A stretch of DNA of 64,000 bases from Dictyoglomus thermophilum H-6-12 (lineage in GTDB: Bacteria > Dictyoglomota > Dictyoglomia > Dictyoglomales > Dictyoglomaceae), in NCBI RefSeq assembly GCF_000020965.1, contig NC_011297.1, positions 1,770,525-1,834,524 of the forward strand. The letters run 5' to 3'. Below the pieces are notes generated by a model that did not search any database, was not told the origin of the DNA, and saw only the letters and a list, made by a program, of their open reading frames with translations. The position numbers and the translations under genes are program-made. Of this stretch, positions 41,577 to 48,562 are shown in pieces; the first letter of the stretch is position 1, and each line of letters opens with the position of its first letter.

Positions 41577-42164
41577 ATGGAAAAGAAAAGAATTTCAAAA
41601 GAAGAGTTTCTTGAAGTTCTTAAAAGTAATCCTATTATAGCAGCCGTCAGAGAAGAAGAAAGACTCTCACAAGCACTACAAAGCAAATCAAAAGTTCTTT
41701 TCCTCCTTAAAACTAACGTATTGACTCTTCCTAATGTAGTTCAAGAAATTAAATCTCACGGAAAGCTAGTTTTTATACATTTAGACCTTTTAGAGGGTTT
41801 AGCTCAAGATAAATATGCCTTAAGGTACTTAGGGGATGTGGTAGGTATTGATGGTGTAATAACCACAAGGGCAAACCTAATTCAACAAGCAAAAGCAGAA
41901 GATTTGATAGCTATTCAGAGGTTCTTTGTGCTGGACTCCTCTGCCCTCGCCACAGGAGTAAAAATTATGCAGTCAGCAGAACCTGACATGGTAGAAATTC
42001 TTCCTGGAATTATCTTTATTCATTTAGGAGAGGAATTAAGAACACAAATTCCCTATCCACTTATAGCAGGTGGATTAATTAGAACTCCTGAAGAGGCAAG
42101 AGATATCTTAAAGGCAGGAGCTACTGCAGTATCTACAACCTCGGTTACTTTGTGGAATATGTGA
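41577..42164 (+). CDS. glpP: Glycerol-3-phosphate-responsive antiterminator, GlpP family
   Basis: A 195-aa TIM-barrel RNA-binding regulator of the GlpP family. Family segments: NPIIAAVREEERL at the start, VFIHLDLLEGLAQDKYALRYL, GVITTRANLIQQAK, EILPGI and AGGLIRTPEEARDILKAGATAVSTT. In Bacillus it binds glycerol-3-phosphate and prevents termination upstream of glpFK/glpD. No glycerol gene is nearby, so the target is elsewhere. Its 3' end overlaps the convergent epsilon-subunit gene by 20 nt. Confidence 0.9.
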   Translation: MEKKRISKEEFLEVLKSNPIIAAVREEERLSQALQSKSKVLFLLKTNVLTLPNVVQEIKSHGKLVFIHLDLLEGLAQDKYALRYLGDVVGIDGVITTRANLIQQAKAEDLIAIQRFFVLDSSALATGVKIMQSAEPDMVEILPGIIFIHLGEELRTQIPYPLIAGGLIRTPEEARDILKAGATAVSTTSVTLWNM

Positions 42165-42588
42165 CAGATTGGGATAATTTAAGCGCCTTCTGTTTTAAGT
42201 AATTTAAGAGAAGGCTTTTTCTGAGCTCTTCTCTTTCTCTATAATTTTGAGCTTGATTTAATCTATTCTTAAGCTCAGTTTCTTCTTTTTTAAGCTCTTC
42301 TTCATTTAATTTTTCTCCTAATTCTCCATATTCTGTAATTATATATACTTTGTCTTTGGCAACCTCCATAAATCCTTCAGAAACCATTAGGAAAATTATT
42401 CTATTCCCACTTTTTGCCTTAATAATTCCCGGTACAACCCTTGCTAAAGTATTAACATGTCCGGGCAAAATACCTACCATACCATCTTCTATAGGCACGC
42501 TAACCCCATCAACAAATCCTCTAAATACCATTTTGGTTGGGGTACTTAATTCAAGATATAATCTTTTACTTGAGGTTTCTCTTTTCAT
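42145..42588 (-). CDS. atpC: ATP synthase epsilon subunit
   Basis: A 147-aa epsilon subunit. The N-terminal beta-sandwich (LELSTPTKMVFRGFVDGVSVPIEDGMVGILPGH) is followed by a charged two-helix C-terminus (KLNEEELKKEETELKNRL). It is the last gene of the ATP synthase operon, 1 nt after atpD, and its tail overlaps glpP on the other strand. Confidence 0.95.
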   Translation of the reverse strand: MKRETSSKRLYLELSTPTKMVFRGFVDGVSVPIEDGMVGILPGHVNTLARVVPGIIKAKSGNRIIFLMVSEGFMEVAKDKVYIITEYGELGEKLNEEELKKEETELKNRLNQAQNYREREELRKSLLLNYLKQKALKLSQSVTYSTK

Positions 42589-42589
42589 A

Positions 42590-44832
<2,243 letters not shown>

Positions 44833-44861
<29 letters not shown>

Positions 44862-46365
44862 ATACTTCCCTTTCGAATTCCTGAAATATATTATGAATTT
44901 GATAAATTATTTGGTCAGAAAGCTCCAATTGTTCTCTTAAAAGAGTCAAAACTGAAGAGTATTTAAGCTTTAAGTATGCAATGTACTTAATGACCACATC
45001 TTTGACTTTTTCTACAGGATAGTTATCAAGAAATCCTCCGTTAGCAAGGTAAAAAGTAATAATCTGTTCTTCCACAGATTGTACTTCATGAGCTCCTTGT
45101 TTCAAAAGCTCTTCAATTCTTCTTCCTCTCTCAATTTTCTTCTTGGTAGCCATATCAAGCTCTGTTCCAAATTCAAGAAACATAGCATATTCTCTGTATT
45201 GAGCAAGATCAAGTCTTAACCTTCCTGCAACCTGTCTCATACCTTTAGGTTGAGCAGACCCACCAACTCTTGAGACCGAAAGTCCCACATTTATAGCAGG
45301 TCTTACTCCTGCATTAAAGAGCGCAGTATCCAAATAAATCTGACCATCGGTTATGGAAATTAAGTTTGTAGGAATGTAAGTAGAAATCTCACCTGCAAGA
45401 GTTTCAGCTATAGGGAGAGCCGTTAAAGCTCCTCCACCAAGCTTTCTACTCAATTTTGCCGCTCTTTCTAAAAGATGAGAATGAAGGTAAAATATATCTC
45501 CAGGATAGGCTTCTCTTCCAGGGACTCTTCTTAAAAGAAGTGCCACTTCTCTATAAGTATTAGCATGCTTAGTTAGGTCATCATAAACAATTAAGACTCT
45601 CTCTCCTTGCCTCATAAAATACTCTCCCATAGCACAGCCTGCCATAGGAGCGATATACCTTAAAGCAGGTGGATCGTCAGGAAAAGTTGCAATAACTATG
45701 GTATTAGATAGTGCACCATACTCTCTTAAAGTTTGAACAATTCGGGCAATATTTGTCCTTTTTTGAGCTATGGCTACATATATACAGATGGTACCATAAT
45801 TCCTTTGAGAGATTATAGTATCAATAGCAATGGTAGTCTTACCTGTCTGCCTATCTCCAAGAATAAGTTCTCTTTGGCCATGTCCAATAGGAATTAAAGC
45901 ATCTATAGCTCTTATACCAGTATAAAGTGGCTCTTTTACTGGTTCTCTATCAAAAATACTCGGAGCCTCATTATCTACAGGCACATAAGCCTCAGGAAAT
46001 ATTAATCCTCCACCATCGATAGGATTTCCTAAAGGATCAATTACCCTTCCCAAAAATCCACTACCAGTAGGAACTTGTAAAATTTTACCTGTTGAGTAAA
46101 CAACCTCTCCTTCTTTTACATACTCATCTCTACCAAAAAGAATTACTCCTACCGAATCTTCTTTTAAAGAAAGAACCATTCCCTGAATACCTGACTCAAA
46201 AATCACTATCTCCCCTACAAAAGCAGCATTAAGGAGAGAGACTTGGGCAACCCCATCACCTACAGATTTTACATAACCTATATTGGATATACGAGGAGAG
46301 AAATCATATTCTTTTATTTTTTCTTGTATCTTCTCTATAGGCAAACCAAGAACTTCTTCTTTCAT
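44833..46365 (-). CDS. atpA: ATP synthase alpha subunit
   Basis: A 510-aa non-catalytic alpha subunit with P-loop GDRQTGKT, the VGDGVAQVSLL start region, and RPAINVGLSVSRVGGSAQ. Its ATG overlaps the b-delta fusion gene by 4 nt, so no separate delta gene lies between b and alpha. Confidence 0.98.
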
Positions 46366-47099
46366 ATATTTTCCACCTCTCTTATGGTTTCATAAATCTG
46401 AGAGAGGTGATAATCAAGAGAATGATCAATTAAAAATTCACCTATAAAAAGTTTAAATCCTAATCCAATGCTCGGATCTACATCAAAAATAAATTTCCAA
46501 TTCCCAGGAAGCAAAGATCTCAATTTATCCTCTATCTTCTTTTTGAGCTGACTACTCACATTATCAGGAGATATGAATTTTACCTCTTCGATATTATCGC
46601 TCTTAATATTGGCAATTGCTGAATCTAAAGACTCTGCAAATTGACTAATAAGGAGTTCTTCAGCCTCCACAGGTAAAAATCTCTTAAAAAACTCCTTTAT
46701 TATTAATCTTGAAAATGCCAATACTTCCTTTTTAGCTGTTTCTAAAACTCTTTTTCTTTCAGCAGTAGCTATTTCATGAGCTTTAACTATGATCTTTTCC
46801 GCTTCTTCCTCTGCCTTAGCAGTAATATCCCTCTTCATCTTTTCCGCTGTATCAACCGCCTCCTTAATAATCTTTGCAGCCTCATCCCTTGCCTGAGCAA
46901 GTTGAGCCTCTCTTTGTTTTCTTAAATCTTCAGCCTCCTGAAGCTTCTTCTCGGCCTCTTTCATTGCTGCCTCAATTTTTTCTCTTCGCTCGTTCATTAT
47001 ACGAATAATGGCACCAAGAAAATACCTCTTGATTATCCAAGCAAGAGCAAGAAGGTTGACTATAGAAGAAACAATTGTCAGCAAATTAAATGAGAACAT
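46362..47099 (-). CDS. atpF: ATP synthase b subunit fused to a delta-like C-terminal domain
   Basis: A 245-aa protein. Residues 8-30 are the single membrane helix, followed by a long charged coiled coil (EKIEAAMKEAEKKLQEAEDL) as in subunit b. The C-terminal ~70 residues end in DPSIGLGFKLFIGEFLIDHSL, the signature of the delta-subunit C-terminal domain (D.SiiGG....ig...iD.Sv). The N-terminal six-helix delta domain is absent or very reduced. No other delta gene is present. Similar long b subunits occur in N-type Na+ ATPases. It probably supplies both stator functions. Confidence 0.9.
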   Translation of the reverse strand: MFSFNLLTIVSSIVNLLALAWIIKRYFLGAIIRIMNERREKIEAAMKEAEKKLQEAEDLRKQREAQLAQARDEAAKIIKEAVDTAEKMKRDITAKAEEEAEKIIVKAHEIATAERKRVLETAKKEVLAFSRLIIKEFFKRFLPVEAEELLISQFAESLDSAIANIKSDNIEEVKFISPDNVSSQLKKKIEDKLRSLLPGNWKFIFDVDPSIGLGFKLFIGEFLIDHSLDYHLSQIYETIREVENI

Positions 47100-47123: not shown

Positions 47124-47378
47124 TTAGAGTTTTCCAAGAAGTGGATTTGCGAAAAGAAGAATCAATGCTACAGTCAATGTAAAAATCATGATGGTTTCTA
47201 TAAAGGCAAGGGCAAAAAGGAGCATTCTGTTTATCTGATCTCCCGCCTCAGGTTGACGAGCCACACTTTCAAGAGCACTGGCTGCTGCATTTCCCTGTGC
47301 CTTAGTAGCATTCATACCCACAAGAGCCACAGACAAACCAGCTGTAATAATAGAAACTATAATTACCCATGCAAGCAT
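47124..47378 (-). CDS. atpE: ATP synthase c subunit, with Na+-type ligands
   Basis: An 84-aa hairpin proteolipid. ESVARQPEAGDQINRML is the conserved loop (Arg41-Gln42-Pro43). The ion-binding Glu61 is followed by Thr62, and Gln28 sits 33 residues before the Glu, the same spacing as Gln32/Glu65/Ser66 in the Na+-binding c ring of Ilyobacter tartaricus. Helix 1 has AGLSVALVGMNATKAQG in place of the usual GxGxGxG run. Na+ coupling is therefore plausible but not proven. Confidence 0.93.
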   Translation of the reverse strand: MLAWVIIVSIITAGLSVALVGMNATKAQGNAAASALESVARQPEAGDQINRMLLFALAFIETIMIFTLTVALILLFANPLLGKL

Positions 47379-47393
47379 ACTATTACCTCCTTA

Positions 47394-48056
47394 CTATTCT
47401 TCTAATGCTGCTGCAAGATATGCAGCGCTAAGACTTGTAAAAATAAATGCTTGAATAAATCCCATAAACATATTAAGAGCCATTATAGGTACAGGAACAA
47501 TAAGAGGAGCAAGTAAAGAAATAATACCAAGAACAATATGTTCACCCGATATATTACCAAAAAGCCTTAGCGCAAGGGAAACAGGGCGAGTAATTTGCTC
47601 TAAAATATTTATGGGAAGAAATAAAACCGATGGAGAAACAAAACTTTTAAGATATTCTATTCCTCTTTCTTTAAAGGCTGCATACTGAATATAAAGAATA
47701 GTGCCAATAGCAAGTCCTACGGTTACGTTAATATCTGAAGTGGGTGAAGCAAAACCAGGGATAAAGCCAGACCAATTCGAAAGAAGAATAAATAAAAACA
47801 AGGTTGCAAAGAAGGAAAAGTATTTTTCTGCAATATGTTCTTCGAGGAAGCCAGAGAGGTATCTTCTAAACATTTCAACTAAGGTTTCTATAATATTCTG
47901 TTTTGTCGTAAGGTTTTCTTTAGGTTTATAACTTAGCCAAAAAGAAAGAAGAAGTACAACTACGGATATTATCTGCAAAGAGATAAAAGTATTTGTTATA
48001 GGAATTCCAAATAGTTCTGCCACAACCCGTGGTCCTATTTCAGGCCCTTGTTCCAT
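47394..48056 (-). CDS. atpB: ATP synthase a subunit
   Basis: A 220-aa membrane subunit with about five to six helices. The stator Arg is in RPVSLALRLFGNISGEH, which forms the ion channel with the c ring. SNWSGFIPGF and the C-terminal LSAAYLAAALEE are typical. It lies just downstream of two small membrane genes and 15 nt before atpE. Confidence 0.96.
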   Translation of the reverse strand: MEQGPEIGPRVVAELFGIPITNTFISLQIISVVVLLLSFWLSYKPKENLTTKQNIIETLVEMFRRYLSGFLEEHIAEKYFSFFATLFLFILLSNWSGFIPGFASPTSDINVTVGLAIGTILYIQYAAFKERGIEYLKSFVSPSVLFLPINILEQITRPVSLALRLFGNISGEHIVLGIISLLAPLIVPVPIMALNMFMGFIQAFIFTSLSAAYLAAALEE

Positions 48057-48402
48057 TTCTGTCCCTCCAGGTCTTCAATATCATATACCATTGTCCTATA
48101 ACGTATCCTATCAAAAATAGGAAAACTCCTATAATATTCGCCCTAATACTTAATAAAAATAATAATATCAAAATTCCATATCTTTTTAGTATGCTTTTAT
48201 TATATCCACTTAAACCATATTTTTTCAAATCTCTTGCCAACCAACAAAAAGAAATTATACTACCCGATAATCCAAAAATCAAGGAAGAGATAGGGGGATA
48301 AACAAAAAAGAAAACAAGCCCTATCAATACTCCATAAAAGGCAATATCTAAATATTTACCGTAAAAATCTGAATATGTCACGGAATCCCACCCATATTCC
48401 AA
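48040..48402 (-). CDS. AtpI/AtpR-like small membrane protein of the ATP synthase operon
   Basis: A 120-aa protein with four hydrophobic segments and a charged loop (LARDLKKYGLSGYNKSILKRYG). Position, size and topology fit AtpI or the N-ATPase AtpR protein, thought to help c-ring assembly. The sequence is weakly conserved, so this rests mainly on context. It overlaps the upstream AtpZ-like gene by 47 nt and atpB by 17 nt. Confidence 0.6.
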   Translation of the reverse strand: MEYGWDSVTYSDFYGKYLDIAFYGVLIGLVFFFVYPPISSLIFGLSGSIISFCWLARDLKKYGLSGYNKSILKRYGILILLFLLSIRANIIGVFLFLIGYVIGQWYMILKTWRDRNGTRA

Positions 48403-48562
48403 GTACTGTAAAGGCTAAAAGAAAAACTGGAGAAGTTTTAAAAATTTTATCCAAATAATATCCTATAAAAATACCCACAAGAAGAGAGCCCAGAAGCCCT
48501 GTGCCAAGAGCAAAGGTAAAGTTAAATATCTCCCATATGTTTTTAGGCTTTTTCCTTTTCAT
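48356..48562 (-). CDS. AtpZ/AtpQ-like small membrane protein
   Basis: 68 aa with two membrane helices and the AtpZ-family pattern GTGLLGSLLVGIFIGYYLDKIF ... LGIWVGFRDIFRFL, shortened here by the spacer. AtpZ (AtpQ in N-ATPases) sits first in ATP synthase operons and is implicated in ion (Mg2+/Ca2+) uptake or assembly. A basic N-terminus (KRKKPKN) precedes helix 1. Confidence 0.75.
   Translation of the reverse strand: MKRKKPKNIWEIFNFTFALGTGLLGSLLVGIFIGYYLDKIFKTSPVFLLAFTVLGIWVGFRDIFRFLR

Follow-up and report, generated by a model that had tools for sequence, protein, structure and literature searches.

The window, a 64,000-nucleotide stretch of the Dictyoglomus thermophilum H-6-12 genome (1,959,987 bases, single contig), carries an F-type ATP synthase operon on the (-) strand with the order AtpZ, AtpI-like, a, c, b-delta, alpha, gamma, beta and epsilon (Table 1). 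The canonical F-type set is present, that is, alpha, beta, gamma and epsilon together with the Fo subunits a, b and c in F order. The c-subunit gene, atpE, lies within this operon, has AAGGAGGT immediately 5' of its ATG, and is present in all seven Dictyoglomota genomes searched (this genome and six relatives). Its product matches the Pfam c-subunit family, and no NCBIfam c model was matched at or over its own cut-off.

Table 1. Features of the atp operon (window positions) and of the second rotary ATPase operon of the same genome.
Feature	Position	Strand	Basis
AtpZ / ATPase_gene1	48356..48562	(-)	PF09527, 49.8 bits
AtpI-like membrane protein	48040..48402	(-)	PF03899, 17.5 bits, under the cut-off of 25.1
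atpB, a subunit, 220 aa	47394..48056	(-)	PF00119, 159 bits
atpE, c subunit, 84 aa	47124..47378	(-)	PF00137, 51.9 bits (cut-off 24)
Lys26 codon, predicted pore-facing Lys/Arg	47301..47303	(-)	K or R in 7/7 Dictyoglomota; facing from helical wheel
Gln28 codon (Ilyobacter Gln32)	47295..47297	(-)	sequence; invariant in 7 sequences
Glu61 codon, ion-binding carboxylate	47196..47198	(-)	sequence; invariant in 7
Thr62 codon (Ilyobacter Ser66)	47193..47195	(-)	sequence; invariant in 7
Ile63 codon, Thr67 place of Na+ rings	47190..47192	(-)	sequence; invariant in 7; c-subunit comparison
Phe66 codon (Ilyobacter Tyr70)	47181..47183	(-)	sequence; invariant in 7
b-delta fusion, 245 aa	46362..47099	(-)	PF00430, 73.3 bits, and PF00213, 30.8 bits, both over cut-off
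delta/OSCP C-terminal domain of the fusion, ~residues 170-241	46377..46592	(-)	structure alignment
atpA, alpha	44833..46365	(-)	TIGR00962, 665 bits; N-type TIGR03324, 570 bits, below cut-off
atpG, gamma	43989..44861	(-)	PF00231, 241 bits
atpD, beta	42590..43987	(-)	TIGR01039, 718 bits; N-type TIGR03305, 567 bits, below cut-off
atpC, epsilon	42145..42588	(-)	PF02823, 65.6 bits
V/A-type ATPase operon	L137 4057-12338, genome ~1.33 Mb		Pfam matches; K alignment

The residues named in the original prediction are borne out by the sequence: Gln28, Glu61 (33 residues on) and Thr62 are present, the Tyr70 equivalent is Phe66, and the reduced glycine motif VGMNATKAQG occupies residues 20-29. An alignment of the seven Dictyoglomota c subunits shows Gln28, Glu61, Thr62, Ile63, Phe66, Gly21, Ala27 and Gly29 kept in all, with variation at positions 23 (Asn or Phe), 25 (Thr or Ala) and 26 (Lys or Arg), and this conservation within the phylum argues that the pattern did not arise by chance. 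Two further features emerged, the identity of residue 63 (Ile, where Ilyobacter has Thr67) and the conserved Lys/Arg at position 26.

To place the ion site among known ones we used 103 c subunits, all anchored on the loop: 80 genome-scan loci picked with two peptide patterns taken from the query, 14 N-ATPases from plasmids, four Dictyoglomota and five PDB references. The ligand triple, Gln/Glu28, Glu61 and Ser/Thr62, occurs in 45 of the 103. Residue 63 is polar in 28 of these 45 (Thr in 23, Ser in four and Gln in one) and non-polar in 17 (Ile in seven, all Dictyoglomota, Met in seven, Leu in two and Val in one). Thr occupies this place in the Na+-type c chains of Ilyobacter (1yce) and Fusobacterium (3zk1) and in chain c2 of 4bem, which we take to be the A. 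woodii enzyme with Na+ as its ion. The chloroplast ring 22vl, presumably from Chlamydomonas, has Gln, Glu and Ser, followed by Leu at the place of residue 63, and chloroplast ATP synthases couple to H+.

Excerpts of Mulkidjanian 2008 (PMC2359735) give a rule for the Thr67 place, namely a polar residue in every (predicted) Na+ c/K subunit and one of Leu, Ile and Val in every (predicted) H+ one; the Dictyoglomota, with Ile63 in 7/7, depart from this rule for Na+-type c subunits. According to the structural description excerpted from PMC3692424, the Na+ of the Fusobacterium ring is contacted by a water together with Glu32 (Gln in Ilyobacter), Val63 O, Glu65 and Ser66; Thr67 and Ala64 O both bond to this water, and Tyr70 bonds to Glu65. 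The Ilyobacter and Fusobacterium rings share with Dictyoglomus the equivalents of Gln/Glu at 32, Glu65 and Ser66, whereas Dictyoglomus has Ile63 for Thr67, Phe66 for Tyr70, Ala24 for Pro and, in helix 1, GxNxTxAxG in place of GxGxGxGxG. The proposed match to the Ilyobacter Na+ ligands holds for the three side chains at 28, 61 and 62; the residues at the Thr67 and Tyr70 places differ. Since Ile63 replaces Thr, the fifth Na+ ligand, the Thr67-held water, would be weakened, though weak Na+ binding is still conceivable. Phe66 would be unable to hydrogen-bond Glu61; alone, it is no marker of H+ use, because five compared c subunits with an E-T-T site also have Phe (L038, L040, L041, L043 and L044).

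The ligand triple is itself insufficient to call Na+, because both the chloroplast ring 22vl and a Burkholderia ring use H+. The latter, the N-type c17 ring of Burkholderia pseudomallei, has Glu30, Glu61, Thr62, Met63 and Tyr66, and as reported in excerpts of PMC5376962 it was predicted to use Na+ and found to be predominantly H+ selective. The known-ion rings with the triple in our comparison, three Na+ and two H+, form a small set and are not independent draws. In a sequence search of the PDB the c subunit scored 65.7 to 61.0 bits against chloroplast c chains and 50.6 bits against 1yce, and its top chain was c1 of the Na+ enzyme 4bem (68.8 bits, summed over two hairpins).

By residue pattern, the closest parallels with known ion to the Dictyoglomus site are H+ rings. 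The chloroplast and cyanobacterial rings (22vl, 4mjn and 2wie) resemble it in Gln, Glu, the LAF[MI]E-type helix 2 and the LLFANP end, and 22vl additionally in the hydroxyl residue (Ser) after Glu and the non-polar residue that follows. Unlike it, the spinach-type chains and 22vl retain Pro, Tyr and a helix 1 rich in glycine, and have no Lys/Arg at 26. We propose that the c subunit forms the rotor ring of an F-type enzyme that probably couples ATP synthesis to H+, and we infer that Gln28, Glu61 and Thr62 form a site like those of the chloroplast, cyanobacterial and Burkholderia N-type rings, in the locked state of which Gln and the hydroxyl would hydrogen-bond the Glu. Na+-driven ATP synthesis, as originally suggested, is on balance unsupported, given Ile63 and Phe66 and the H+ use of the same-triple rings of known ion with a non-polar residue 63.

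Against H+, Gln, Glu, Thr and a backbone carbonyl could still supply four of the five Na+ ligands, and the water retains a second anchor, a backbone carbonyl. A Na+-driven ring in which Gln28, Glu61, Thr62 and the backbone carbonyl suffice, the water being held by the backbone alone, would agree with the conservation of the three side-chain ligands in 7/7 Dictyoglomota and with the Rnf gene cluster encoded in the genome (L139). In Thermotoga maritima, Rnf pumps Na+ and is paired with a Na+ F-ATPase (excerpts of PMC7414866), so that a Na+ gradient is plausible in Dictyoglomus and a Na+ F-ATPase would fit. We nevertheless regard such a ring as unlikely: it has Ile63 and Phe66 against it, a non-polar residue 63 goes with H+ in the two known cases, and a separate Na+ site resides in the K subunit of the V/A-type ATPase. 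The genome also encodes a membrane pyrophosphatase (L138 1462-3453), and a Pfam search of it returned no match to PF00361 (Mrp and complex-I antiporter-like subunits); neither Rnf nor the pyrophosphatase was taken as proof of the F-type coupling ion.

Seven of the nine genes of the V/A-type operon match Pfam subunits I, K, C, F, A, B and D (V/A-type or c-family), and two without a Pfam match were taken for subunit E and a G/H-like stalk subunit. Aligned to Enterococcus hirae NtpK, its K subunit keeps LPGTQG.YGF, QG and VETYAIL; the LPGTQG, QG and VETY stretches of E. hirae K hold Na+ ligands (excerpts of PMC2359735), and as judged from this alignment the Na+ site of E. hirae is retained in the K subunit. 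Na+ would be handled by this second rotary enzyme of the same cell. A poorly selective F-type site, taking H+ or Na+ according to pH and Na+ level like the Methanosarcina acetivorans enzyme, would suit the intermediate ligand set seen in the c-subunit comparison, and PMC3692424 describes the dual coupling reported for M. acetivorans, which it attributes to relative selectivity. Sequence cannot separate dual use from H+ use, and we hold a dual-ion site to be improbable, more so than a Na+ ring.

Helix 1 of the c subunit is itself unusual. Its motif is GxNxTxAxG in Dictyoglomus and GxFx[TA]xAxG in the second genus of Dictyoglomota. Excerpts of PMC5376962 report that Gly to Ala changes in the glycine motif can raise the c-ring number and that a ring with AxGxAxAxG has 17 subunits; by analogy, an unusual ring size is plausible in Dictyoglomus, where the altered motif could change it, as the original prediction had suggested. 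On a helical wheel Lys/Arg26 lies at 160 degrees from Gln28, which places it on the pore side, and it would face the rotor pore at the depth of the binding site.

A charged residue occurs at position 26 in one of 77 other distinct cores, at position 30 in 28 and at position 34 in 47. Of 20 further c-like ORFs, 18 could be anchored and two could not; among these 18 cores, one has Arg and another His at position 26. The idea that the basic residue of helix 1 is unique was therefore rejected, since charged residues are frequent on the pore side one to two turns closer to the cytoplasm; the rarity is limited to the depth of the charge (position 26). Outside the Dictyoglomota, Arg26 was seen at two loci (L023 and L163), both with Gln/Glu28, Ser62 and an aliphatic residue 63 (Val and Leu). 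The combination of Lys/Arg26, Gln/Glu28, Ser/Thr62 and an aliphatic residue 63 is thus found in three lineages, too few for a rule. The first of the two loci, from a Persephonella MAG (L023 4149-7235; Arg26, Glu28 and E-S-V), has N-like Fo genes that follow an ORF reading like a putative cation antiporter, its b gene being cut by the contig end. Elsewhere in the comparison, a c-like ORF (L158 10121-10387, genome G032) has Ser at the place of the ion-binding Glu, and a normal E-T-T c subunit is encoded in the same locus; a mixed ring is possible, as read from the two sequences.

N-ATPases were reportedly defined by Dibrova in 2010. We considered the Dictyoglomus enzyme as an N-ATPase and rejected this on gene order and the alpha/beta trees, though its b and c subunits resemble N-type ones. 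N-type traits are present: there is no separate delta, b is long, and the F-type enzyme sits beside another main rotary ATPase, the V/A-type operon. The N-type gene order, with beta-epsilon first, is absent, the Dictyoglomus order being Z-I-a-c-b/delta-alpha-gamma-beta-epsilon, and both N-type NCBIfam models, for alpha (TIGR03324) and beta (TIGR03305), scored below cut-off. ORF 48040-48402 has a weak AtpI match only, with no AtpR match up to E=1.

The 14 plasmid N-type operons (L100-L113) are like that of Dictyoglomus in having no separate annotated delta and a long b of the same layout, in carrying AtpZ in most cases, and in an E-T-nonpolar site in 7/14 c subunits. They differ in gene order and in the position of alpha and beta, and no atpR was recognised in Dictyoglomus; their c subunits have Glu28 in 10/14, Tyr66 in 14/14 and Arg/Lys at 30, not 26, in 13/14. 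Pfam OSCP is found at the end of two of three scanned N-type b proteins (L101 and L103; not L111), of a length similar to the Dictyoglomus b. In seven of the 14 operons (L100, L101, L103, L107, L109, L110 and L113) the long b is publicly annotated as 'delta', so that the absence of a true delta can be hidden. Two of the 14 operons have peculiarities of their own. A haloarchaeal N-type c gene (L102 6210-6758, Salinigranum marinum) encodes two fused hairpins with Gln and Glu in each, the first having E-S-Q, and in an Acaryochloris N-ATPase operon a gene annotated as a cation:proton antiporter (L112 4106-5335) lies between AtpZ and subunit I.

The F-type stator of Dictyoglomus uses a b subunit fused to what matches, in Pfam and in a structure model, the C-terminal domain of delta: the protein consists of the b helix and this domain, without the delta N-terminal domain. 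The operon holds no separate delta gene, and in the genome PF00213 was matched by the b fusion alone. Among NCBIfam models the fusion scores 76.4 bits with N-type b (TIGR03321), over nearly its whole length and below cut-off, and 73.6 bits with F-type b (TIGR01144), over cut-off. Its AlphaFold model (mean pLDDT 78.5, pTM 0.45, four sequences) aligns over 72 residues (170-241) with residues 115-188 of bovine stator chain S, which we take to be OSCP (Z 8.0, rmsd 1.5). About 200 residues of the model align with V-ATPase stalk chains, presumably subunit E (Z ~8 to 9, rmsd mostly 4 to 5 and up to 9; two of the entries, 4dl0 and 4efa, are titled as EGC stalk), and the highest Z, ~12 (12.4), is with mycobacterial b-delta chains; all of these values fall below ~13, where, by the warning of the tool, scores can be common for long helices. 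A Foldseek search of the model against the PDB gave no match at E 0.001 or better (best 0.0013). As long helices inflate Z and the best Foldseek value is only 0.0013, the Pfam match carries the main weight for the fusion.

An OSCP match was found in 48 of 60 genomes and was near-full-length in 40 (in one, G052, within a 682-aa frame). In eight of the 60 OSCP occurs only as the end of a b protein, namely the seven Dictyoglomota and G042, presumably Coprothermobacter proteolyticus (1,424,912 bases). A plasmid search with the b fusion returned one b match, covering 65% of the fusion. The G042 operon (L134) resembles that of Dictyoglomus in its order, Z-a-c-b/delta-alpha-gamma-beta-epsilon without delta, whereas an AtpI-like gene was not found in it and its c subunit differs in Met28, Ser62, Leu63 and Tyr66. 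The OSCP match of its b protein is weak on its own (21.2 bits against a cut-off of 22.3) and lies over cut-off with its neighbours in the 60-genome count.

We evaluated the position of these enzymes with a tree in which the alpha and beta subunits of 55 operons (40 F, 11 N, three Dictyoglomota and G042) were aligned together, each rooting the other. The sample comprised 12 of the 48 named F loci of an earlier joined alignment, 36 being left out by hand, as were L102, L108 and L109, and did not include L112, which has no annotated alpha; six of 34 further fetched loci lacked both full-length subunits, and none of the F-type operons selected by name is from Thermotoga or cyanobacteria. Apart from those of Dictyoglomota and G042, all F-type operons fall in one clade (0.987 for alpha and 0.978 for beta), and Dictyoglomota, G042 and F together exclude N (0.989 and 0.86). 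The grouping of Dictyoglomota with G042 receives 0.956 on the beta side and only 0.112 on the alpha side; the N-types form no clade on the alpha side and one with 0.587 on the beta side.

Earlier trees of other samples agree on the beta side, and the joined alignment gives 0.968 for Dictyoglomota with G042; in one of these trees the alpha side is weak, with the G042 alpha outside the other alphas and alpha-side supports of ~0.45 to 0.52. In IQ-TREE the N-types are paraphyletic for alpha as well as for beta, and a very long branch separates the two subunits, which makes attraction of fast N-type sequences to the root possible. IQ-TREE labels may be shifted by one node after re-rooting, and we therefore relied on the split-based values of the 55-operon tree. 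The Dictyoglomota and G042 thus stand beside the sampled delta-bearing F-type enzymes with the N-ATPases outside, parts of this arrangement being weakly supported; the family search for separate delta genes covered the 60 scanned genomes and not the 12 named F loci of the tree. Read most simply, the fused stalk would be the older of the two states, and the missing delta may be an old trait of the enzyme family; independent losses of delta, or a wrong root, are possible.

Based on the older-state reading, we tentatively propose, while holding the proposal as a whole to be somewhat doubtful, that: (i) the Dictyoglomota and Coprothermobacter-like enzymes keep an older stalk of one b-delta protein, which would be built like V/A-type subunit E with a membrane helix added; (ii) a separate delta, with its N-terminal domain, would have arisen once, in the ancestor of the canonical F-type enzymes; and (iii) the pore ring of Lys/Arg26, level with the ion sites, would have arisen at least three times, each time with Gln/Glu28, Ser/Thr62 and an aliphatic residue 63, and may help to shift the preference of the site to H+.

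The missing delta of Dictyoglomus and its link to N-ATPases are already published, in a study that we take to be by Koumandou and Kossida. According to excerpts of that paper (PMC4154653, 2014), delta is missing from both Dictyoglomus species, their c subunit clusters with those of N-ATPases, and the ancestor of N-ATPases may have its closest kin in the dictyoglomi. N-ATPases are described in excerpts of the COGcollator paper (PMC5706428) as lacking delta and having a longer, E-like b, with the proposal that b and delta arose later by a split of the stalk subunit. The literature searched, in part represented by excerpts, yielded no discussion of the Dictyoglomota b-delta fusion, residue 63 or Lys/Arg26; Dibrova 2010 may say more.

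For c subunits generally, Gln, Glu and a hydroxyl residue are not proof of Na+ coupling, and residue 63 is the one to inspect. Provided that the tree is right, a thermophile available in culture has a surviving version of the F-type stator from before the delta subunit, and the stator-evolution proposal outlined in the excerpts of PMC5706428 would become testable.
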